In this document: piece by piece, positions 42,665 through 62,668 of the stretch | How the letters are laid out: the number at the start of each line of letters is the position of its first letter | Position numbering within the stretch: the stretch's first letter is position 1 | Origin: Clostridiaceae bacterium | Lineage (GTDB): Bacteria > Bacillota > Clostridia > Saccharofermentanales > DTU023 | Direction of reading: 5' to 3' | Assembly: GCA_012518795.1 (NCBI GenBank) | Contig: JAAYRL010000006.1 | Location: 128,346-192,345, forward strand | DNA: 64,000 nucleotides | Notes under the pieces: model-generated | Seen by the model: the letters and a program-made list of their open reading frames with translations, nothing else | Told to the model about the DNA's origin: nothing | Databases searched by the model: none | Made by a program: the position numbers and the translations under genes

Positions 42665-42733
42665 TGAACACTGTAAAAGTTATTAATTTTATTTTTTTTT
42701 GGACATTTTTTACACCTATTGAGGCACGAATTT

Positions 42734-44155
42734 ATGGTTTTTTCCAGTTTGTTTTTTTTGTATGCGTTTTTACCGTTATGTTTAATGGTTTATCAAATAC
42801 CAAGAACCTTAAAATTTAAAAATCTTGTCTTATTAGCTTTCTCTCTTTTCTTTTATGCCTGGGGTGAACCGTTCTGGATTATTCAGATGTTGATATCCGG
42901 AATTTGGGTTTTCCTATCAGGCTTATTTTTAGACCGTTATAAGCATGATCCCGCAATGCACAAAACTATTTTAGTCATTGGTACAGTCGGAGCTTTATTG
43001 CCTCTATTCATCTTCAAGTATGCCGGGTTTTTCATTGAAATAATTAATGTGCTTCCTTTGATCAATATTCCTCTCCCCGGTTGGACAATGCCGATCGGAA
43101 TATCCTTTTATACCTTCCAAATTTTAAGTTATCTGATTGATCTTTACCGAGGTCAATGTCAAGTCCAAAAATTTTTGCCGGACTTTTTACTTTATCAGAC
43201 TTTATTCCCCCAATTGATCGCCGGCCCGATTGTTCGTTACAGTGATATAGAGGAACAATTGAGAGAGCGCAGAATTACAATCAGAGGTTTGGCAGATGGC
43301 ACCAAAAGATTTGTTATAGGTCTGGCGAAAAAAACTCTGATTGCCAACTATGCCGGAACTTTAGTTGCCCAAACTATAGGCAGTGGAAATCTGAATATAC
43401 TTTCCGGTCTTGAATGTTTAATCGGAATAATTGCAGTCACTATTCAAATTTATTTTGATTTTTCCGGATATTCAGATATGGCAATCGGTTTGGGTCATAT
43501 GTTCGGCTTTAAATTCAAAGAAAATTTCGAGTATCCCTATTATTCAAAATCAGTTACTGAATTCTGGCGGAGATGGCACATTTCTCTCGGTACTTTCTTC
43601 CGTGACTATGTTTATATTCCTTTAGGCGGCAATAGACATCATAGATTACGTAATGCCTTTATTGTCTGGTTTTTAACCGGCTTTTGGCATGGTGCAGGTT
43701 GGAATTATATTTTTTGGGGTTTGTATTATTTTGCAGTTCTTCAAATTGAAAAATATTTAACCTTGAAGTATACGGAAAAAATTCCGCGTGTCATCATGTG
43801 GATACCGATGAGCATCGTATCAATGCTGGGTTTTGCGATTTTTTACTTTAACGCAATTCCCGATCTCGGAATATTTCTCAGTAGATTATTTACTTTCGCC
43901 GGCAATGATTTCGTCAATCTGAAAGGCAAATTATTATTTAATCAAAATTTGATATTCTTTATTTTCTCTTGGATTTTATCAATGCCAATTATACCGGAAA
44001 TCAGAAAACGCTTACCCGGTTTGCGAAGTTATAGATTCAGAGCAACGAAATTTTATGTTATCGGATCAACCGTTTCAATTTTATTATTGTTATTAATCAG
44101 CACCGCATCTTTGGTTGGTGACAGTTTTAATCCCTTCCTTTATTTCAGGTTTTAG
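42734..44155 (+). CDS. MBOAT-family membrane O-acyltransferase (AlgI/DltB-like)
   Basis: A polytopic protein that moves acyl groups across the membrane to an extracellular polymer. The family signature FWRRWHISLGTFFRDYVYIPLGGNRH and the catalytic His region GFWHGAGWNYIFWG are intact. About 11 hydrophobic segments. The ATG at 42734 follows GAGG by 9 nt; a TTG five codons upstream contains the SD itself. The next gene is a DHHW protein, the usual partner for O-acetylation of a surface polysaccharide. Confidence 0.92.
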   Translation: MVFSSLFFLYAFLPLCLMVYQIPRTLKFKNLVLLAFSLFFYAWGEPFWIIQMLISGIWVFLSGLFLDRYKHDPAMHKTILVIGTVGALLPLFIFKYAGFFIEIINVLPLINIPLPGWTMPIGISFYTFQILSYLIDLYRGQCQVQKFLPDFLLYQTLFPQLIAGPIVRYSDIEEQLRERRITIRGLADGTKRFVIGLAKKTLIANYAGTLVAQTIGSGNLNILSGLECLIGIIAVTIQIYFDFSGYSDMAIGLGHMFGFKFKENFEYPYYSKSVTEFWRRWHISLGTFFRDYVYIPLGGNRHHRLRNAFIVWFLTGFWHGAGWNYIFWGLYYFAVLQIEKYLTLKYTEKIPRVIMWIPMSIVSMLGFAIFYFNAIPDLGIFLSRLFTFAGNDFVNLKGKLLFNQNLIFFIFSWILSMPIIPEIRKRLPGLRSYRFRATKFYVIGSTVSILLLLLISTASLVGDSFNPFLYFRF

Positions 44156-44280
44156 CTGCATATTCAAGTAATAAAGTTTTAACTGTAATTAATGTGAAAG
44201 TGACCACCTCTATTTCAAGTTTTAAGAGGTAGATTCAAATGACATAACGAGTTAAACTAAACAAGATAAAAAGGTGAATA

Positions 44281-45846
44281 ATGGAAATAAATAATATAAA
44301 TTTAAGTCATAAGCATTCCCAAGTCTTGGACAGAGAGAAAGAAATTCAAAAGGCGAAAACAGAAGCCGATAAATATAGTTTAAATCGTAAGAATTCCGGA
44401 ATTTCTCTAAATGAAGAAAATCCACGGAGAAACAAACCTAATCCATATAAGCCTCAAGCTATTAAACATGACGCGATTGTTTTTATTAGTTTTTTCATTT
44501 TCCTCGTTGTTTTCGGACTGCTTTTTCTGGTCTGGAAAAAACAGGACATTTCTGAAATGGAAAAAAGGACTTTACAACAAAAACCTAAATTAACCTCAGA
44601 AAGATTATTCAGCGGAGAATACGGCAAAGAATTTGAAGCATATTATGCAGACCAATTTCCCATGCGGAATCAATTTATGGAACTCTATAAATCACTGGTT
44701 AACTTGATGAATTCTTTCCCCGGCGGAAAGCAAAGAATTCATTTGGTTACAGGTTCAAAAAATCAACTAAATGATACATTTGAAGTAAATGATCCTCAAG
44801 TCAAAAACCGGAATGCACAAAATCAGACTGATTCAGATCCTAAATCTATTACAGAGCCCGAAATTGCACAAAAAGAAAACCATAATGAAGACGGCCATAA
44901 TCTTGAAAAGATTGTTGAAGAAAAAAATCAAGAAAAAGCGCAAAACCGAGAACTACAATATAATGATGCAAGCAATATAATCGTTGACGGCAAAGCAATG
45001 GAAATATTCGGATATTTTCCGGAAAATGCTGTTGCTTATGCAAATAGGATAAATTACTTGCGCGAAGTTTTACCCGATCAAATCAGATTGATTCATCTGG
45101 TTGCACCGCCGGCAATTGCGTTTAACGGTTTGGAAGAATTGGAAGCAGAAAGCGAGATTGTCTATCAGGCAATTGATCAAATATATCAAGCAGAAAACGA
45201 TTCTATTATTAAAGTTGATGCTATCTCAAATATTGCGAAACATGCTGACGAATATATTTATTTCAATACAGATCATCACTGGACGGGTCGTGGTGCATAT
45301 TATGCATATCAGGCTTTTTGTTTTTATACCGGACAAACTGCAACCGCCTTGGAAGATATGGAACTGACTAAGCCCGACTATAATTTTCTCGGGTCTTTAT
45401 ATAGTTTCACCGGCAATAGTCCTCTACTCGAAAATTCTAAAGATCAAGCTGAAATCTTTCTGCCCAAATATTCAGGTACCAATACAGTATATAGGGATAC
45501 AAGTATGTCTGACGGAGTTCCGACAATGCTCTTGGATTCGGAAAGTAAAATTGATTCACATTATATTCTTTATTCCGGTGACGATGTCGCTTTGGGTTTA
45601 ATCAAAAGCGACATCAATAACGGAAAATCTATTCTGGTCATCAAGGATTCTTTTGCGAATGCATTTTTGCCTTTTTTAATGGATAATTACGAAAATATAT
45701 ATTCAATAGATCCAAGATATATGACTGATCCAATTCTGCCTTTTATCAATGAAAAGAAAATCAATGATGTATTGGTTCTCAATTCAGCTTTCATTACCGG
45801 AAATGCGGACTGGCTTGGCGGCTTTGATAATATCATCGGTTACTAG
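44281..45846 (+). CDS. DHHW-family (AlgX/AlgJ-like SGNH) protein, partner of the MBOAT enzyme
   Basis: A cytoplasmic N terminus of about 60 residues, one TM (AIVFISFFIFLVVFGLLFLVW), then an extracellular domain. FNTDHHWTGRGAYYAY is the DHHW catalytic signature, and VIKDSFANAFLPFL carries the family Ser. A Gln/Asn/Lys-rich insertion of about 70 residues (residues about 165-235) is unusual. AAGGTG lies before the ATG. With the MBOAT it probably forms an O-acetylation pair. Confidence 0.87.
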   Translation: MEINNINLSHKHSQVLDREKEIQKAKTEADKYSLNRKNSGISLNEENPRRNKPNPYKPQAIKHDAIVFISFFIFLVVFGLLFLVWKKQDISEMEKRTLQQKPKLTSERLFSGEYGKEFEAYYADQFPMRNQFMELYKSLVNLMNSFPGGKQRIHLVTGSKNQLNDTFEVNDPQVKNRNAQNQTDSDPKSITEPEIAQKENHNEDGHNLEKIVEEKNQEKAQNRELQYNDASNIIVDGKAMEIFGYFPENAVAYANRINYLREVLPDQIRLIHLVAPPAIAFNGLEELEAESEIVYQAIDQIYQAENDSIIKVDAISNIAKHADEYIYFNTDHHWTGRGAYYAYQAFCFYTGQTATALEDMELTKPDYNFLGSLYSFTGNSPLLENSKDQAEIFLPKYSGTNTVYRDTSMSDGVPTMLLDSESKIDSHYILYSGDDVALGLIKSDINNGKSILVIKDSFANAFLPFLMDNYENIYSIDPRYMTDPILPFINEKKINDVLVLNSAFITGNADWLGGFDNIIGY

Positions 45847-51352: not shown

Positions 51353-53086
51353 TTATTCTTCAACCAACACAATGCCCGGATTATCTCGCACCGCATCCAC
51401 AACACTTTGGGGTAAGCCTGCACAACGCACCGTGATGGGATTAAACGGTCTAATGAGTGGAGAAAGGTCTGTAATCAGCGTATTGCTTACATCAACTTCC
51501 CGTAAATTAGGGAGCCTTGCCAATACGCCAATATCTTCTATGTCACAATATTCCAATTTCAGTGTCTGCAACTTGGTAAGCTCGGCAAGCGGTGTCAAGT
51601 CAGTCACCTGAGTTTGGCTGATATCAAGTGTTTCCAGAGAGAACAAACGAGAAATCGGAGTAAGGTCACTCAAAGGATTTTGGCATACATCCAACTCAAG
51701 CAGTGTTACCATATCTTTTAGCGGCAATAAATTTCCCACAAAATTATCACTTAAATTTACATTCTCCAGTTTCATTCCTGAAAGAGGGGAAAGATCGGAT
51801 ATCGACTGTGATGTTAAGGTCAAGTTGCGCAAATAATACATGTTGGGAATATCAGAAAGAGAACTGATGTCACCTCGCATATCAATCCAAAATCCTGTAT
51901 CGGTGGTATAATTCACAGTTCCTTTGTCCACATGCGTTTTGAGCAGTTCATCTTCCAAGTCCGGATGAAGGATATACGTTCCGTATATTCGAAGTTCATC
52001 TATTCGACTGTTTACTTCGGTACGATATATCACGTCACCTTGTTGTTTATTCAGAATATTTCGCACTGCTAAATCCAGATATTCGCTGTCGAAGGTAATC
52101 GGCTCTAAGAGTTCCTCTTCTGTAAACGGACTGTTTTTTTCGGCAGGAATATCCATGATGAAATCTACACCATTTTGAAAACCTTGCTTTTTCCCAATAA
52201 ATAGTCCGAATAAAAAAGCTGCAGTAACCAGGGCACACATTCCGGCAATAATCAGTATCTTTTTGGTAAGTCGACGGCGAACCCAAAGAATTCTGCTTCT
52301 TAACTGTGTCACCGTCTTAAAACGTTGATCACGGTCTTTTTTAATACACTTTTCAATGATTGATACCAATTCTTTGTAGGGATAAATGGCTTTCAGATTT
52401 TGTTTCCTGGTTTTCCCTGTAGCCAGAAAAATCATGACCATGCCCAAAGAATAGATGTCAGCACGGTGATCAGTCTGTTCACTACCGAATTGTTCCGGTG
52501 CCATATATGCTCTTGTTCCTGCAATATACGTATCCTGATCACTATCAGTTTCCGTTTTGAAATCGCGGGCAATACCGAAATCGATGAGTTTTACCTCACT
52601 TTTGTCTGTCACAATAATGTTTTCCGGCTTTATATCACGATGAATAACTGCAGGATTCTGGCCGTGTATATATATTAAAATTTCACACAATTGCAGAATT
52701 ATCTCAAACAGTGTTTCTCGGTTTAATGTACCGTATTTGCGGATGAAGGCGCTCAGATCATCACCTTCAAAATATTCTCGCACCATAAAACTACGTCCAT
52801 TATGCTCCCATGCACCGAGCGTTTTCGGTATGGCAGGATGATCAAGCTTTGCCAATATCATGCTCTCAGCAGCAGCATCTTCACTGCTCTCCGTGCTTGT
52901 GATACGGAGTACGGCACGTAAACCGTCCGATTTACGGGTGATAAAATAAACTTCTTTCTCATCATTCTGTTTGATTAAGCTGTCAAAGAAGAACCCCTCT
53001 GTTAATTCCAAGGGCATATCTGCATCAGCTATTTCTTGTTGAAGCTTTTCGCTATATGACTGCAAAAATTCTGATACATCGGACAA
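51353..53086 (-). CDS. Membrane Ser/Thr kinase with extracellular leucine-rich repeats
   Basis: 577 residues. Kinase domain about 28-270 with Glu74 (helix C), HRDIKPEN at 149-156, DFG at 169-171 and APE at 196-198. The lysine of the VAIK motif appears as Arg61 (AVLRIT), and there is no clear Gly-rich loop. TM 276-298. The outside part has a linker and leucine-rich repeats at about 400-565 (LRNLTLTSQSISDLSPLSGM, LETLDISQTQVTDLTPLAEL), internalin-like. The start is TTG with GGAGG 9 nt upstream. It should sense an outside ligand and signal inward. Confidence 0.85.
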   Translation of the reverse strand: MSDVSEFLQSYSEKLQQEIADADMPLELTEGFFFDSLIKQNDEKEVYFITRKSDGLRAVLRITSTESSEDAAAESMILAKLDHPAIPKTLGAWEHNGRSFMVREYFEGDDLSAFIRKYGTLNRETLFEIILQLCEILIYIHGQNPAVIHRDIKPENIIVTDKSEVKLIDFGIARDFKTETDSDQDTYIAGTRAYMAPEQFGSEQTDHRADIYSLGMVMIFLATGKTRKQNLKAIYPYKELVSIIEKCIKKDRDQRFKTVTQLRSRILWVRRRLTKKILIIAGMCALVTAAFLFGLFIGKKQGFQNGVDFIMDIPAEKNSPFTEEELLEPITFDSEYLDLAVRNILNKQQGDVIYRTEVNSRIDELRIYGTYILHPDLEDELLKTHVDKGTVNYTTDTGFWIDMRGDISSLSDIPNMYYLRNLTLTSQSISDLSPLSGMKLENVNLSDNFVGNLLPLKDMVTLLELDVCQNPLSDLTPISRLFSLETLDISQTQVTDLTPLAELTKLQTLKLEYCDIEDIGVLARLPNLREVDVSNTLITDLSPLIRPFNPITVRCAGLPQSVVDAVRDNPGIVLVEE

Positions 53087-55010: not shown

Positions 55011-56570
55011 TCAAGGTGTTAATCTGGTATTTTCTGAACCGTTAATTTGGACTCGCCACAGATTGTCACCGTCTTCTTCATTTATATAGAATATCCATCG
55101 TCCTGCAATATTAAACGGACCGGTGCGTGATGACACAATGGTATAGTGAGTTCTGCCGTCTAAAGATATCCAATCGAGAGTTTTATTATTACCTGCAACA
55201 TAAAAAATACCTTCGTCCGTAACATTAGGATAATGTGCAGAAATATTTGTCAAATTATCAAGATTTCCACCATCTAAATCCATACTGACGAGGGAACTTA
55301 TACTATGATTATTTGAATCATTCCTTACATTATATGTAGAGGCAATTATTTTATCATTATTAATACAAAAACTCTCACAGTAATTACCGTTGATCAGATT
55401 TAAATTTCCGCCATCTAAATCACTGCTGTAGATGTGATTGCCTTTATTTGAATCAATATAAAATAACTTTTGATCAATAATATTCAGGCAAAGATATTCC
55501 ATCGAACCGCTCAATTGTGTAAGTGTTTTCGTCTCAGGATCTATTTCATACAAATATCCGGTTTCAAAATTATCATAAAGATAAAAAAGTTCATTTATAA
55601 TATAAAGTGTCCCGGAATGAGAATCGCAAAACTCTTCCTTTTTTAAGTTATCGGGATTGATTCTGAAAATCTTTTCATCTGTACAGTAATAAAGCCACCC
55701 GGCAAAATAATTGAGATTATGTGCTCCGACATTTGATTGCATCAACACAATTTCTGCTGTATAGGGATTCATCCGATAGATATTGTCCTCAAAAATATAA
55801 AACACTTCGTCTTCGCTATTAGTTGCAATTGCGCCTAATTCTGATGTGTAATTTCCGGAAAGATTCCCGCTTTTCGAATCAAAGACCGGATTTTTTATTC
55901 CGATTCCGGGTGCATCAGAAAAACCCTTTTCATAACCGATTGCATAGCCTGTTGCGTATCCGGAATTCTCACCGATTGAACTGCCTCGTAATTTTCCCTG
56001 TTGATAAAAATAAAAAACCGTGCCTGCTATCAAGCAAACACAAACTAATATCAAAACAGCAAATAATAATTTTTTTGGGGATAGCTTTGTGCTTTTTATC
56101 GCATTCATCAGTTCTTTTATGTCACGAAAACGTGACTGCGGATCGAAAGCAATACATTGTTCAATCAGATTGCGAAGTACACGATTCTCAATAAATGATT
56201 CCAGATTTGTTTTATTTTCATGACCTGTTGCCATAAAAATCATCAGTACACCTAAGCTATAAATAATTGCTTCAGAAGTATACTTATCTGTTTGACTTTG
56301 CTCCGGTGGAATGTAAGCTTCCCGCTCAATAATTGGTCGAATTGCCTCAGAAATTTGAACCCGATCCGTTTTGGATATAATAATATTTTTCGGATGAATA
56401 TATCCGGCAAATTTCGATATATCCTCATGATATTGCCTATCTAACAGAATGCAGATTTGCTGAACAACATACAAAATCTCATTTGATTGCATAATTCCGT
56501 CTTCGGAAACGATTTCAAAAACAGAGCGTTCTTCTTGATTTTCCCATTTGAATTTTGGTTTAAACAACAT
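55011..56570 (-). CDS. Pseudokinase with TM and extracytoplasmic DUF5050 domain
   Basis: 519 residues from MLFKPKFKWENQEE. Residues 1-160 are a kinase remnant: no N-lobe lysine or Gly loop, AGYIHPKN where HRDIKPxN is expected (residues 55-62), SEAI where DFG is expected, and PPE for APE. The C-lobe helix LRNLIEQCIAFDPQSR is nearly that of the upstream fusion kinase. TM about 168-188, a GY-rich linker, then DUF5050 beta-propeller units (FYIFEDNIYRMN, LYYCTDEKIFRINP). GGAGG overlaps the upstream stop, so translation is coupled. Confidence 0.82.
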   Translation of the reverse strand: MLFKPKFKWENQEERSVFEIVSEDGIMQSNEILYVVQQICILLDRQYHEDISKFAGYIHPKNIIISKTDRVQISEAIRPIIEREAYIPPEQSQTDKYTSEAIIYSLGVLMIFMATGHENKTNLESFIENRVLRNLIEQCIAFDPQSRFRDIKELMNAIKSTKLSPKKLLFAVLILVCVCLIAGTVFYFYQQGKLRGSSIGENSGYATGYAIGYEKGFSDAPGIGIKNPVFDSKSGNLSGNYTSELGAIATNSEDEVFYIFEDNIYRMNPYTAEIVLMQSNVGAHNLNYFAGWLYYCTDEKIFRINPDNLKKEEFCDSHSGTLYIINELFYLYDNFETGYLYEIDPETKTLTQLSGSMEYLCLNIIDQKLFYIDSNKGNHIYSSDLDGGNLNLINGNYCESFCINNDKIIASTYNVRNDSNNHSISSLVSMDLDGGNLDNLTNISAHYPNVTDEGIFYVAGNNKTLDWISLDGRTHYTIVSSRTGPFNIAGRWIFYINEEDGDNLWRVQINGSENTRLTP

Positions 56571-56574
56571 GAAA

Positions 56575-59500
56575 CTATCCTCCGAATTGCACAGGATGAT
56601 CATTAGCCCCATTAAGCCTGACACACCACAATCTGTTTCCGTCTGTAGCATTATGATAGAAAATCCAATCTCCGACAATATTAAAATCAGTAGCATAATT
56701 CTTGGAGATTCTAATTCTTATTCGGCCATCAAAAGAACACAAGTTAATTGTTCCGTCATATGCATTGATATAGTATATTCCATTTGTGGTTGCGTTAATC
56801 ATATCAGCATTTATCTCGGAAAGATTTTCAGCTTCCTCAAAATCGCTACGGATCAACAGCAATTCTTCTGTTCCTTCATCATCACTATCATTAACTGCAC
56901 AAAACAGAGTATCTTCAAATAGACAAATACTGCTGCAATTGCGGTCCAAAACTTTCACTGAATGATTATTATTGAGATTGGAACTATATAGGCAACGATC
57001 TTTTTCATCGATATAAAATAAACTGTCATCAACAATATTCAAAGATTGAGAGGAAGGTAATTGGTTCAAAGAAGAAATATTACCGGTTGCTATGTTCAGT
57101 AAATATAGTCCGTCATCAGTCTTGACATAATAACGATCATTTAATATATGTATTTCTCCGGCCAAGTCTGCACAAAGCACATCGGTTTCAAGAGTATAGA
57201 TATTGGTTTGCAGAATATTACCACCGGATGAATAATATAACCAATCATTGTAACAACTTAAAGCTGTAGCATCTTTTCCTGCCACTAAAAGCTCAGTTTC
57301 AGCTTCATTTTCCGACATTTTATAAATATTTCCATTTGAAATAAAGAAAATATAATCTTCGCTCTGTGCAGTATAAGCTCCACCGGTAATGGCAGAGTTA
57401 CCGAGGCTGTTGCCACGTTTGAGATCAGGTTGTATTGCACTTGTCAGAAGAATAGGTACAGCATCATATCCATCTGTATAGCCAACACCATAACCTCGAT
57501 CATAACCAATATCAGCAGCATGACTTTTTGCTCTGAAAAATCCCACTCCGTAAGACAAAGTCGAAAATAAAGTCGTACAAATCAAAAACAAAGATGCAAC
57601 TATGAGAGAACGTTTTCTTTTTGACTTTCGGATATTATTATCTCGCATAATGTAATCCCTAATCTCCTCTACACTCTGGATTCGAGATTTCGGATTAAAA
57701 GCAATACATTGTTCAATCAAATTGCGAAGCCGATTATTAACAATTTGTGATTCCAGCCCTGTTCTGGCTGTTCGGCCTGTAGCCATAAAAAGCATTACTA
57801 CACCCAGGGAATATATGTCTGATAAGGGTGTTGTCTGCTCAAAACCATATTGCTCAGGTGAAGCATAATCGAGTGTCAGAATGACAGAAGTATCTTGAAC
57901 TCGCTCATGCTTATGGAATCTTGCAATTCCGAAGTCAATCAGATGGATGTTTCCATCCTTACCCACGATTATATTCTGAGGCTTGATATCACGATGAATA
58001 ACAGGGGGTACTCTGGAATGTAAATAACTCAAAATATCCACCAGTTTCAAAACAATATCAAAAATATCTTTTGCTCCCAGATTACCACCTTTTTTTATAA
58101 TCTCGTAAAGTGAACGTCCTTCAAAATATTCTCGCAATATGTATTTTTTCCCGGAATACTCAAAAGAATCAAACACTTTCGGAATCCCCGGATGATCCAA
58201 TTTTTCTAACAATTTCGCTTCTTCAAGTGCATCTTCTTCAGGGTAGTCCTGTGTAATTTTAAGTAAAACTCCGGTCTTGTCCGCCCGGCGAAGCAGATAG
58301 ATTTCTTTCTTGCCTTCGGGATCTTTGCGCAGGCAACTTTCATAAGAATAATTGGCTAACAGCTCTTCCGGCATACTTGCCTCAGGCAATGAATCGTGAA
58401 GTGTTTTTTTATACGAGTTGAGAAAAATTTCTATATCATTGTTTGGGATCTCGTTCTCCCCTGTTTCATCGACAATTTTTGGAGATAATATCTGCATATC
58501 CATATTCCAGGCTGTTTGAGTTTTTTCTTGATTTTGAAAAGTCTCAGGTATATCATTACTAAATTCATCCATATCAGCAACCGCCTTTCTTTTGTTAACA
58601 GCCTGCTTAAACTTTGAACCCGCAAAAAATTGTGGTGTCAATAAAAAAGGAATAAATACAGCACAAAACAGAATGTAACAATAGGTAAATACTGCCGCTG
58701 TTGCAATTCCTTTTCGCGTGAGTATGAAAATACCACGATCAATACAGAGAATTGATACTATCAGAAACCATTTATTATTACGAATATATTCAAACATTAT
58801 TTTCATTCCGGCAGTAAAACTATACTCGAGTTTATTTACATTCGTGGAAGGAAACGGTGCATTATTAGCTTTGATTTTGTTTGCGATATAGCGGCATGTT
58901 CCCGCCAGAATTGAATAAGAATGTCCCACAAACGAGAGTGAAATTATCACGGTATGTGTAGTTCGCTCTGCATATTCCTTAGGTAGCCGCCGTCGCATAA
59001 CAAAACTCCTTATACGCGGGAGAATAATAAAACAGACACTGCAAAAGACAAAGCCTGCCCATAAAAGATATATATTCCCTAAATAACATTCATAGAGAAC
59101 TGTAGGCAGAAGCATCACTTGATTGAGGAGCGAGAAGAAATATATATACATGTAAAGCCGGTCACAGTTGCGCGTTGTTCCCGGGACGATAGTTCCGTCA
59201 AAAATCATTTCCAAAAGACCATAGGCATACCGACGTTGTTTGCATGTTTCTTCAGTGAACGTTCTGCTTACATATTCCGTAAACTCAAGTCCTTGTAATT
59301 GGGCATATTTTCCATGGTACCCCATACTGTAAAAGCAGATAGCTTTATCGAAATCTTCCGATACTTTATCCTCGGACCAAAGGCCACTCTTTTCCAATAT
59401 ACTTTTGCGCAAAAAAACATTATGTCCGATCAGCGGGACAAAATAGCCTTGCAGTGCTTTACACGGCCAAACATTATGAAACAGATTATTGATCTGATGG

Positions 59501-60462
59501 CCTGTAGCGTATGTAAAATAGTTTTCATACAAATTTTCCGCCTTAGTGGCACATTGTACATAAGCCAGTTTTTCGTCTGCTGCAAATTCCGGAATAATTG
59601 CCTCAATAATTTTTTCTTTTACTCCGGAATCCTTGTCTAGCAGCAAAATTATCTCATTTATCTTAATATCTCCTTCTGCGTAGCCTTCTGCAAAAGGTTG
59701 TCCTTTCTGTGTCAGGCTTTCCGGAGAATTACCGGCGATTACGGCGTTACCAAAACGCAAGGTATAATTAAGATTAGAAGATTTTTTGAACAAACCGTGC
59801 CTTCCCTCTTGTGGACGTACAACGAAAGGAATCCGGTTCTTACGATAAAACTGAATACGTTCTGCAGCTTGTATTTCTTGCTCAGTTAACGAGAAGGAAT
59901 CAAATAAAAAAGTCTTGATCAGCAGTTCTATTTTCTCTTTTGTACAATAACCGCCAAGCATCGGTGCAAGTCCGTCGTCTGAAACTACAATATTACTTTC
60001 TTGACCGCTATATTCATGATAGCGTTTTACTGCAACCATGCTCTGCCGCAAAGTTTGAAAGATTACTGCATTATCTTCCAAATAAACAGGTATACTGATC
60101 GTAACCGGTAAAAGCGCCTCGCGGGAAACTTCTTTACGAACCGTATTCATATAATGTTTTCTGTTAATTTGCAGGTTCCCTGCAAGAATTTCACAAATTG
60201 ACGGTCGCAGAGACCATAAAGTATCTGTAATATATTGCAAGGGATAAATAAAGAAAACAAAAGAAAGAAAAAGTCGAATTAAGCTTCCCAAGGTTCTGCC
60301 GTAAAGCAAGAATAATGTAATGTGTGCTCCTGCATTAATCATAAGCACAATAAAATAAGGCCAAACACCACATATACTATTTCCGATATTTTCCGGAATT
60401 TTTCTTGATTTTTTTTGTTTTTCCGGTTTTTTTCTTTTGCTCCGAATTAATTTTTTACGCAT
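56575..60462 (-). CDS. Glycosyltransferase family 2 - Ser/Thr kinase - DUF5050 fusion protein
   Basis: 1295 residues. Two TMs (about 34-80). GT2 domain about 118-415 with VVSDDGLA (160-166), LLDKDSG (274-280), VSEDFD (367-372) and QRRYAYG (409-415), the D, DxD, ED and QxxRW-type motifs of processive synthases. Four or five TMs (434-610). Linker. Kinase domain about 700-940 with Lys735, HRDIKPQN (823-830), DFG (843-845) and SPE (868-870). TM 951-972, GYxxGY linker, DUF5050 about 1010-1290. All catalytic residues look intact. It starts 1 nt after the upstream lipoprotein gene. Confidence 0.88.
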   Translation of the reverse strand: MRKKLIRSKRKKPEKQKKSRKIPENIGNSICGVWPYFIVLMINAGAHITLFLLYGRTLGSLIRLFLSFVFFIYPLQYITDTLWSLRPSICEILAGNLQINRKHYMNTVRKEVSREALLPVTISIPVYLEDNAVIFQTLRQSMVAVKRYHEYSGQESNIVVSDDGLAPMLGGYCTKEKIELLIKTFLFDSFSLTEQEIQAAERIQFYRKNRIPFVVRPQEGRHGLFKKSSNLNYTLRFGNAVIAGNSPESLTQKGQPFAEGYAEGDIKINEIILLLDKDSGVKEKIIEAIIPEFAADEKLAYVQCATKAENLYENYFTYATGHQINNLFHNVWPCKALQGYFVPLIGHNVFLRKSILEKSGLWSEDKVSEDFDKAICFYSMGYHGKYAQLQGLEFTEYVSRTFTEETCKQRRYAYGLLEMIFDGTIVPGTTRNCDRLYMYIYFFSLLNQVMLLPTVLYECYLGNIYLLWAGFVFCSVCFIILPRIRSFVMRRRLPKEYAERTTHTVIISLSFVGHSYSILAGTCRYIANKIKANNAPFPSTNVNKLEYSFTAGMKIMFEYIRNNKWFLIVSILCIDRGIFILTRKGIATAAVFTYCYILFCAVFIPFLLTPQFFAGSKFKQAVNKRKAVADMDEFSNDIPETFQNQEKTQTAWNMDMQILSPKIVDETGENEIPNNDIEIFLNSYKKTLHDSLPEASMPEELLANYSYESCLRKDPEGKKEIYLLRRADKTGVLLKITQDYPEEDALEEAKLLEKLDHPGIPKVFDSFEYSGKKYILREYFEGRSLYEIIKKGGNLGAKDIFDIVLKLVDILSYLHSRVPPVIHRDIKPQNIIVGKDGNIHLIDFGIARFHKHERVQDTSVILTLDYASPEQYGFEQTTPLSDIYSLGVVMLFMATGRTARTGLESQIVNNRLRNLIEQCIAFNPKSRIQSVEEIRDYIMRDNNIRKSKRKRSLIVASLFLICTTLFSTLSYGVGFFRAKSHAADIGYDRGYGVGYTDGYDAVPILLTSAIQPDLKRGNSLGNSAITGGAYTAQSEDYIFFISNGNIYKMSENEAETELLVAGKDATALSCYNDWLYYSSGGNILQTNIYTLETDVLCADLAGEIHILNDRYYVKTDDGLYLLNIATGNISSLNQLPSSQSLNIVDDSLFYIDEKDRCLYSSNLNNNHSVKVLDRNCSSICLFEDTLFCAVNDSDDEGTEELLLIRSDFEEAENLSEINADMINATTNGIYYINAYDGTINLCSFDGRIRIRISKNYATDFNIVGDWIFYHNATDGNRLWCVRLNGANDHPVQFGG

Positions 60463-60463
60463 C

Positions 60464-61750
60464 TTATTCCGATTCAGAATTTTGCTCCAAAGGATTTCGC
60501 TTCATCTGAGCAAAAGCAAGCCAGCTCGTGGCAGCCACACTTTGTGAATTGTTGAATTCCCATAAAGTTTCTGATCCGGCAATAACAAAACCGGTAGAAA
60601 CACCATCTCTGTCAGCAGCAGGAATACTTCCATCTTTTTCGGTCTGAGTTTCTAAATATTTCATTATTGAATCATATTTTTCCGAATGTCCGAGTTTGTT
60701 GTAACAGACCGCCATTTGTGCCGTTCCTTCATTCCAAACGCCGTCCAAATCCCCTGCACTAAAATCAAAGCCTTCCCCTACAGCTATTCTGTTCTCAATA
60801 AATGAAATAATTTGATGAGCATCTCCCAGCTCTTCATCTAACGCAAGAATCGCCAGAGTATTCGTATCCAACGGAATAACTCCTTTACTTATAGTCTTGC
60901 CATCATCCAGCGTACCGGTATAAAAACAATGTAACTCATCATCATACATAGATAGTACAAACGTTTTAGCATAATCTGATGCTTTCCGATACTCTGCAGA
61001 TTTATCCGGATCTTTTTCCGCGATTGCATCAGCTATTACAGAGAATGCACTGATCAGACCGATATTGTGTTCCGTTGATTTATAAGTAACTATCTTTTGT
61101 GTATCATCCCATCCTTCATATCCTGCCGTAAAACCACCACTATCGGATTTTAGCGTTAGAACAAAGTCGGCTGCCCGAATCGCAGCTTCAAGATATTCCT
61201 CTCTATGCTCAGCATCAGCATTTTCTGCTACTGTACACAGTGCCAAAACAGTCCAAGCAATATTTCCGGTTGAAGTTGAAACAGTATATGAATCCTCTTG
61301 CCAACTTCCATCCTGCCAAAATCCGGGAAGTCTGATTGTAACTTTTCCGGCTGTAATCGATCTGCCGGAATCACTTTTGGGGTCACCACTAATATAAGCA
61401 TTTCTTAGTCTTCCATCTTGAAATGTTCGATCATGCTCCTGAGCAAATAGAATTGCATCTGCAATTTTTTGAGCATGCCAGTCGGCTCCGGCATATGATA
61501 ATACAATAATTGCTAATGCATTATCATACAGGTAAGCATCGTCAGAATTCTTTGATTTTTTAGGAATACTTGCAATGAAACCATTACTTTCTTCAACTTT
61601 ATCAGCTAAAAAACCTGCTGCAGCAGAAATTTTAGCTATCTCCTTTGCATCAGGCTTAATATTACGCTCAGAATTACAACCGGTCAGAATCAAAACAAAT
61701 GCGGTAAGTATACACAGTATAGCTTTTGCAAGTTTCAGCAATTTGCCCAT
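60464..61750 (-). CDS. Secreted lipoprotein, alpha/alpha-barrel (six-hairpin glycosidase-like)
   Basis: Signal peptide to the lipobox LILTGC. GGAGG lies 5 nt before the ATG at 61750. About 400 residues of alternating helices follow, with repeated Trp/Asp-rich turns (YLYDNALAIIVLSYAG, STGNIAWTVLALC, EHNIGLISAFSVI, LDTNTLAILAL, DGVWNEGTAQMAVCY, VAATSWLAFAQM). This pattern fits an (alpha/alpha)6 barrel. Catalytic acids are not certain. It is directly before the GT2 fusion gene, like the hydrolases that trim polymers in synthase operons. Confidence 0.72.
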   Translation of the reverse strand: MGKLLKLAKAILCILTAFVLILTGCNSERNIKPDAKEIAKISAAAGFLADKVEESNGFIASIPKKSKNSDDAYLYDNALAIIVLSYAGADWHAQKIADAILFAQEHDRTFQDGRLRNAYISGDPKSDSGRSITAGKVTIRLPGFWQDGSWQEDSYTVSTSTGNIAWTVLALCTVAENADAEHREEYLEAAIRAADFVLTLKSDSGGFTAGYEGWDDTQKIVTYKSTEHNIGLISAFSVIADAIAEKDPDKSAEYRKASDYAKTFVLSMYDDELHCFYTGTLDDGKTISKGVIPLDTNTLAILALDEELGDAHQIISFIENRIAVGEGFDFSAGDLDGVWNEGTAQMAVCYNKLGHSEKYDSIMKYLETQTEKDGSIPAADRDGVSTGFVIAGSETLWEFNNSQSVAATSWLAFAQMKRNPLEQNSESE

Positions 61751-61902
61751 TTTAACCTCCACGTCTCTGAATTATCAGTTTTAGCGATAATCTCCCCAAA
61801 AAAACTTGACATAGCATCAAAATTATTAGCTTAACTCTGACACATGTTTTTTTAACATCTTAAATTATTTCAAATATCTACTTAATGCATGCAAAGATAT
61901 TT

Positions 61903-62358
61903 TTATTCATTTTCCGTGCCATCATCCAAAGGAGCAAGTCCTAAAGAACACATAAAATCATAAGTTTGCATAATGTCATATTCATGATTAATTGCAAATA
62001 TAATAGCAGCATCACGTTTAATAAGCGGATGCAGCGCACCGTATTGTGCGACTGCCAACATTCTCTGTGTTGTCTTCAGATCAAGAGACATTGCAAGAGC
62101 AATCAAAAGATAGTAATCACGTTTGCCTCGTCTTCTCCCTTCCATAATCTGGTAGCCATAAACTCGGGAAAGATTTGCTTTTCTGATCACATCACTTTTC
62201 TTTTGTCCGGTAATAATAAATAACTGATCAAAAAAATCACGGATATCATCATCCAGAAACTCATCCCAATTTTGAGGAAAAGAATCTCCTTTCAGCTTCT
62301 CATGCATGAGTGACGTATCGAGAGGATTCTTTTTCGTTTTGTCATTTGTTTCTGTCAT
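61903..62358 (-). CDS. HTH-domain protein, probable regulator of the kinase cluster
   Basis: 151 residues from MTETNDKTKKN (AGGAG 8 nt upstream). An XRE-like helix-turn-helix spans about 50-100 (TGQKKSDVIRKANLSRVYGYQIMEGRRRGKRDYYLLIALAMSLD). The C-terminal half is helical (TTQRMLAVAQYGALHPLIKRDAAIIFAINHEYDIM). It is the first gene of the minus-strand cluster, 150 nt before the lipoprotein gene. Binding to the repeated palindromes of the cluster is a testable guess. Confidence 0.68.
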   Translation of the reverse strand: MTETNDKTKKNPLDTSLMHEKLKGDSFPQNWDEFLDDDIRDFFDQLFIITGQKKSDVIRKANLSRVYGYQIMEGRRRGKRDYYLLIALAMSLDLKTTQRMLAVAQYGALHPLIKRDAAIIFAINHEYDIMQTYDFMCSLGLAPLDDGTENE

Positions 62359-62668
62359 GATTTTCACTCCTGTTGTTATATCGTTTATTGAAACTAATTC
62401 ATGTTGCTAATGTAAATTGCTTATATTTATAATTAACATTTAATCTTCTTAAGAAAAATCTAAGAAACAAAATTGCATATTGTTGCTATATTTATCTTAA
62501 TGAAAATGTATTGTCATATTTATATTATAGTATAATATTTATTTTATATTTTTTATAAAAATAAATGAATTAAATCTATAGTTATGATTTAGTTAAATAA
62601 TGAGCAACAATTGATGTTCAGTGATTGAGATTGATATTGATATTGAAAAACGTTCAACAGGGGAAAAA
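62359..62668. other. AT-rich divergent spacer
   Basis: 310 nt without a gene, between the HTH gene (minus) and a plus-strand membrane protein. TATAAT lies at 62531-62536 on plus, with TTGTCA 14 nt upstream, which is short spacing. Otherwise I see only A/T runs. Confidence 0.5.

Follow-up and report, generated by a model that had tools for sequence, protein, structure and literature searches.

The fusion of a membrane glycosyltransferase of family 2 (GT2) with a Hanks-type Ser/Thr kinase domain, a further transmembrane (TM) helix and a DUF5050 domain in a single polypeptide is genuine and has been conserved across at least ten related genomes. The gene is located in a 64,000-nucleotide stretch of a Clostridiaceae bacterium genome (contig JAAYRL010000006.1, assembly GCA_012518795.1), hereafter the window, and was pointed out in an earlier note made from the DNA letters. 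In this protein and its relatives, a single pairing of synthase and lipoprotein is linked to three unrelated types of signaling module. On balance, these observations lean slightly toward a membrane GT2 synthase that would be gated in cis by its own C-terminal receptor kinase or kinase-like domain. Control of synthase-dependent surface polysaccharides in Gram-positive bacteria is poorly known, and regulation by cyclic di-GMP (c-di-GMP) through PilZ domains is the standard model.

Architecture and conservation of the fused protein

The open reading frame (ORF) occupies positions 56575-60462 of the window on the minus strand, which also carries the other genes of the core operon given below, and runs from an ATG at 60462 to a TAG ending at 56575 without internal stops, encoding 1295 residues. 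Three Pfam families were matched above their curated cut-offs: Glyco_trans_2_3 (PF13632) at residues 271-474 (E 2e-20, 73.9 bits versus 27), Pkinase (PF00069) at residues 742-919 (E 4e-35, 121.9 bits versus 31.7) and DUF5050 (PF16472) at residues 1018-1281 (E 3e-17, 63.1 bits versus 27). The unbroken frame, these matches and their retention in relatives bear out the order GT2 with TM helices, kinase, TM helix and DUF5050 that the earlier note had read in one chain.

Two N-terminal TM helices (about residues 33-79) are followed by the GT2 catalytic domain (residues 111-435, positions 59158-60132), with the motifs SDDG at 161, DKDS (extended to DKDSG) at 276, SEDFD (overlapping VSED) at 368 and QRRY at 409. 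The membrane region at the C-terminal end of the synthase (residues 436-615, 58618-59157) comprises TM helices predicted by hydropathy near 438-456, 464-482, 564-582 and 590-608 and an FP[SA]T loop at 537-540; a weak hydrophobic segment at 505-523 may be an interface helix, by analogy with BcsA. A fast-evolving linker (residues 616-672, 58447-58617), in frame in all intact orthologues, leads to the kinase domain (residues 706-945, 57628-58347), which contains K735, HRD at 823-825, DFG at 843 and SPE at 868. The last TM helix (residues 952-970, 57553-57609), also assigned by hydropathy, has a K/R-rich stretch just before it, and the chain ends with the DUF5050 domain (residues 1018-1281, 56620-57411). 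Hydropathy, the positive charges (a K/R-rich N-terminus on the inner side) and the even number of TM helices suggest a cytosolic GT2 and kinase and an extracytoplasmic DUF5050 domain, in agreement with the topology previously proposed. Other DUF5050 proteins of the order look like lipoproteins or have an N-terminal TM helix, and no PDB relative of the domain, which the earlier note took for a beta-propeller, was found by sequence. A GYxxGYxxGY-like repeat motif directly follows the last TM helix (57430-57540, about residues 975-1011) and recurs after the last TM helix of the product of the next gene (55011-56570); it may form an external stalk.

Nine loci carry an intact fusion (the window, L012-L017, L024 and L025, each contig counted once); they come from separate metagenome-assembled genomes (MAGs) and share 54-92% identity over the chain. 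In a tenth, L023:1398-4968 of genome G108, a frameshift follows the kinase and the next ORF, of 269 residues, holds the TM helix and the DUF5050 part; this is either a sequencing error or a real split. The fusion occurs in six genomes of the window's own family and in eight of 188 genomes of the order, the GT2 reading into the kinase in each. Six further fused loci were found in MAGs labeled Clostridiaceae, Oscillospiraceae or Erysipelotrichaceae, four of them taken as the same contigs as in G037, G036, G034 and G029. The GT2 family of the window is rare (three of 391 class-sample genomes and one of 399 phylum-sample genomes at E<=1e-20); these figures, like the counts of the fusion, cover this family and not kinase fusions of other, unrelated GT2 families.

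Two things were to undo the reading of the earlier note, an error of assembly and a linker interrupted by a stop or frameshift, and the nine intact loci exclude both. That two genes were joined in error during assembly or annotation could be suspected from the 54 contigs of the window's assembly and from the frameshift in G108, but the probability of such an artefact is practically negligible because the same in-frame fusion is found in the nine separate MAGs. The ratio of nonsynonymous to synonymous substitution rates (dN/dS) is 0.11-0.13 over the whole fused gene. Within the genus the kinase is under the strongest constraint in the chain, with a ratio of 0.03-0.05, against 0.06-0.10 in the GT2 and 0.25-0.37 in the linker; identity in the linker is 60-74% within the genus and 10-17% outside it. 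A single origin of the fusion fits the tree with weak support (Shimodaira-Hasegawa-like approximate likelihood ratio test, SH-aLRT, 58; long branches of G108 and G1020). No free-standing kinase-DUF5050 ancestor was seen, an evident kinase being absent from the DUF5050 proteins examined in other parts of the order.

Operon linkage and exchange of the signaling module

All ten fused loci share a core of four genes in the same order, encoding a 154-residue protein (61903-62367), a glycosidase-like (alpha/alpha)6 lipoprotein (60464-61762), the fused protein and a pseudokinase-TM-DUF5050 protein of 519 residues (55011-56570). The stop codon of the lipoprotein gene ends 1 nt before the ATG of the fused gene, and the ATG of the pseudokinase gene lies 4 nt after the fused-gene stop, behind a GGAGG. 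The lipoprotein has a lipobox (LTGC, residues 26-29), and its AlphaFold2 model (predicted local distance difference test score, pLDDT, 68; predicted template modeling score, pTM, 0.76) matches (alpha/alpha)6 glycosidases and epimerases in Foldseek (E about 1e-7 to 1e-5). Since this fold search returns many (alpha/alpha)6 families at 10-15% identity, the protein is assigned to no glycoside hydrolase (GH) family; going by the model, it is taken as a putative glycan-active exported partner. Sequence-profile matches of the lipoprotein to nitric oxide synthase were set aside as chance. The pseudokinase partner retains a C-lobe-like remnant only, with no N-lobe, HRD or DFG. In one relative (L014:8001-13469) the fused and pseudokinase genes share a frame with a TAG between them, so that read-through would give about 1830 codons; the shared frame is probably due to chance, as the pair is out of frame in the window.

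Relatives of the synthase that lack the kinase fusion carry or adjoin other signaling modules in its place. In four genomes of one genus from another family of the class (G523, G1216, G1218 and G1229) the GT2 continues within one polypeptide into GGDEF and EAL domains (L027:9574-12909, L039:6239-9823, L040:5411-8731 and L041:5466-8801), recognized by a Pfam scan in G523 and matched by ORF layout and motifs in the other three. The GT2 of G523 is 41% identical to that of the window. The product of the next gene unites a lipoprotein relative (32% identity in G523) with a GDPD domain, and an overlapping gene upstream encodes a protein of LtaS-like sulfatase fold. In the three of these four proteins that were read, GGDEF is replaced by GGNF and the DDFG of the EAL loop by DGFG; for this reason the module probably serves as a receptor rather than as an active enzyme, and the whole protein is a candidate c-di-GMP-receptor synthase.

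A third arrangement is found in G1020, where a free-standing GT2 of 629 residues, 53% identical to that of the window, is preceded by the gene of a 52% identical lipoprotein and has a stop codon that overlaps the start of a histidine kinase gene (ATGA). This translationally coupled histidine kinase, of seven-TM type, has an N-terminal TM helix, an outward region of about 150 residues and several more predicted TM helices; an OmpR-type regulator and another histidine kinase come next. As the slot after the GT2 thus holds different signaling modules, in cis or overlapping, the GT2 appears as their common target. This module swapping is the strongest functional evidence available and, at the level of sequence, supports the C-terminal part of the fused protein as a regulatory input to the synthase. 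A GGDEF domain was undetected in four of eight fusion-bearing genomes tested (G028, G029, G037 and G047; E<=1e-6), an absence that is uncertain in incomplete MAGs; there, an input other than c-di-GMP, such as the kinase, would make sense as a stand-in. The window's own genome has eight GGDEF domains, within the range of 8-16 that it forms with G034 and G036.

Proposed control of the synthase and its alternatives

In the proposed scheme, the membrane GT2 would take a cytosolic nucleotide sugar and probably extrude the glycan through its own membrane helices. The same chain would carry the receptor of the synthase, made up of the outward DUF5050 domain, one TM helix and the cytosolic Hanks-type kinase domain. 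A signal from the envelope, perhaps the glycan itself, pieces of it released by the neighboring lipoprotein hydrolase or cell-wall material, would alter DUF5050, possibly by way of its pairing with the pseudokinase-DUF5050 protein that the next gene encodes. In response, the kinase domain would turn the synthase on or off, either allosterically or through phosphorylation of the synthase, of the linker or of the partner. This reading rests on the conserved architecture, the full set of GT2 Asp motifs, the invariant Asp and Asn residues of the kinase, the operon linkage and the module exchange; from these we infer the polymer synthesis, the direction of control, the ligand and the phosphorylation. 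The earlier note had suggested polymer synthesis gated by an envelope sensor. The module swaps sustain the part of this idea that makes the C-terminal region a regulator of the GT2, while the polymer, phosphorylation and envelope sensing remain proposals. A more far-reaching version can be advanced tentatively, as a possibility that we hold to be less than even: a single-chain receptor-synthase in which DUF5050 would read the polymer or its hydrolysis products and set the rate of the synthase via the kinase. This would constitute a closed feedback loop replacing c-di-GMP control, within a GT2 family in which kinase, c-di-GMP and two-component modules replace one another in the regulatory slot.

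The kinase domains of the ten fused orthologues were aligned with those of four neighboring kinase-leucine-rich repeat (LRR) proteins and with nine tandem pseudokinases. HRD, Asn830, DFG and [SP]PE are invariant in the ten fused kinases, all of which keep the activation-segment Thr. The best PDB matches include StkP and PknB, and a PP2C phosphatase, which counts in favor of the scheme, is present in 12 of 12 genomes tested. Against the PASTA-kinase (PknB/StkP/PrkC) equivalog the protein scored 134 bits, in the kinase part only, versus a cut-off of 450. In the synthase, the SDDG, DKDSG, VSED and RYxYGL motifs are kept in all 15 GT2 homologues, as is the FP[SA]T loop before the last TM pair, which by analogy may occupy the place of the BcsA gating loop.

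Several findings weigh against gating of a processive synthase by an active kinase. The kinase has no canonical Gly-rich loop (GxGxxG), and five of the ten orthologues (L015, L016, L023, L024 and L025) have Arg in place of the beta3 Lys, K735, so that phosphotransfer may be weak or absent. The last GT2 motif reads QRRY, QFRY or EYRY, with Tyr for the Trp of QxxRW and, in the GGDEF-EAL group, Glu for Gln. By sequence, the closest solved synthase is BcsA at noise level (E 0.06), and an AlphaFold2 model of the GT2 built from seven sequences was unusable (pLDDT 45.6). At the operon, neither an Rfam element nor a clear shared promoter was found.

Since neither the Gly-rich loop nor a constant VAIK Lys is present, the domain is classed as Hanks-type by homology, with intact C-lobe catalytic residues and an atypical N-lobe, rather than as a proven active kinase. 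Its description in the earlier note as a complete kinase was thus too strong, although K735, HRD and DFG are indeed there; K735, moreover, is a poor choice as the mutational probe it was meant to be, half of the orthologues having Arg at that position. The domain could instead be an ATP-binding pseudokinase or allosteric relay exerting conformational control, as PilZ does in BcsA. The N-lobe features just described speak for this alternative, together with the Arg that replaces the beta3 Lys in all four neighboring kinase-LRR proteins and with the tandem partner, already a clear pseudokinase. Retention of the HRD Asp, Asn830, the DFG Asp and the activation-segment Thr in ten of ten orthologues and the strong constraint on the domain argue for ATP-dependent chemistry and make a purely allosteric role somewhat unlikely, while the Lys/Arg variation and the missing loop argue for caution on phosphotransfer; kinase catalysis is plausible but unproven.

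The fusion might also merely co-localize two activities, the kinase acting on neighbors such as the 61903-62367, zinc-ribbon and TPR (tetratricopeptide repeat) proteins and leaving the GT2 ungated. Bacterial Hanks-type kinases often have several substrates, and two of these neighbors, the 61903-62367 and TPR proteins, show conservation within the cluster, but the other signaling modules that follow the GT2 in relatives point to the GT2 itself as the common target, which renders this explanation decidedly unlikely. A different doubt concerns the product: the GT2 could add single sugars to a lipid or wall acceptor instead of making a polymer, and the module would then regulate a wall-modifying transferase. 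Replacement of QxxRW by QxxRY or ExxRY agrees with this, as does the fact that no BcsB/PgaD-like partner was recognized; the LtaS-like sulfatase-fold and GH-GDPD genes adjoining the GGDEF-EAL relatives could mean teichoic-acid chemistry. Processive synthases are nevertheless resembled in the TM layout, the D,D,D motifs and the FPxT loop in the gating-loop position, and synthase operons typically encode an exported glycosidase-like partner (PMC7710045); the single-sugar explanation is therefore considered unlikely. In-cis gating of a synthase by its kinase or kinase-like domain remains the preferred reading.

Further genes of the cluster and comparison with known systems

The first gene of the core operon (61903-62367) encodes a protein that keeps 70-96% identity and the same place in the ten fused loci. 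It looks helix-turn-helix-like by eye; searches of Pfam, NCBIfam and PADLOC gave nothing, and that of PDB nothing credible. In most loci the core is followed by zinc-ribbon membrane and TPR proteins, and the kinase-LRR and WG-repeat proteins of the cluster are limited to the genus. The kinase-LRR protein of the window (51353-53086) is a second Hanks-type kinase, with a TM helix and Arg for the VAIK Lys, like its orthologues. PADLOC matches to anti-phage defense kinases (PD-T4-6, MAD6 and Stk2) cover the generic kinase region only, and no defense partner was found among the neighbors scanned, so this assignment was rejected. On the other strand, an MBOAT plus DHHW-type pair (42719-45846) resembles polysaccharide O-acetylation genes (CcsH/CcsI-like by eye); as O-acetylation partners of the synthase these genes were dropped, not being near the fusion in relatives.

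The classic synthase with an in-cis regulatory module is BcsA with its PilZ domain. In-cis PilZ domains are also present in the clostridial synthase CcsA, which has a glycosyl hydrolase in its operon (PMC7710045), and in the GT2 synthase RiGT2 of Romboutsia (PMC10374906). The fused protein resembles the three in the placement of the GT2 between membrane helices, the D,D,D,Qxx(R)(W/Y) signature and the regulatory domain on a C-terminal cytosolic tail; it differs in that the tail is not PilZ but kinase-TM-DUF5050, which would re-cross the membrane and could face the outside. Its GT2 sequence is remote as well, as measured against BcsA, and QxxRY stands for QxxRW. The clear BcsA relation and the PilZ domain that mark BcsA-type cellulose synthases are both missing, no PilZ being among the Pfam matches. 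The YdaK operon, in which a dedicated c-di-GMP receptor lies beside a putative synthase (PMC7064775), is comparable with the GGDEF-EAL relatives; it consists of separate proteins and has no kinase or DUF5050, and the comparison is one of arrangement.

On the kinase side, PknB, StkP and other PASTA kinases share the order of cytosolic kinase, single TM helix and extracytoplasmic domain; the window's protein has DUF5050 for PASTA, an atypical N-lobe and, ahead of the kinase, a fused GT2 with its membrane helices. A survey of bacterial Ser/Thr kinases likewise describes some that share a polypeptide with an enzymatic domain; in the passages that a text search of it gave, no glycosyltransferase-kinase fusion appears (PMC1262709). 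In the open-access papers searched, neither a GT2-Ser/Thr-kinase fusion nor a kinase-TM-DUF5050 tail on a GT2 was found, and the abstracts of the three that mention DUF5050 deal with other subjects. With three unrelated signaling modules attached to one synthase-hydrolase pair, including a transmembrane kinase within the synthase chain itself, direct kinase gating of a GT2 becomes testable in one protein, and the natural Lys/Arg variation in the kinase lets catalytic and allosteric control be distinguished. The fused protein belongs with the known polysaccharide synthases that bear an in-cis regulatory module, and, going by the literature searched, its kinase-TM-DUF5050 tail is new among them.

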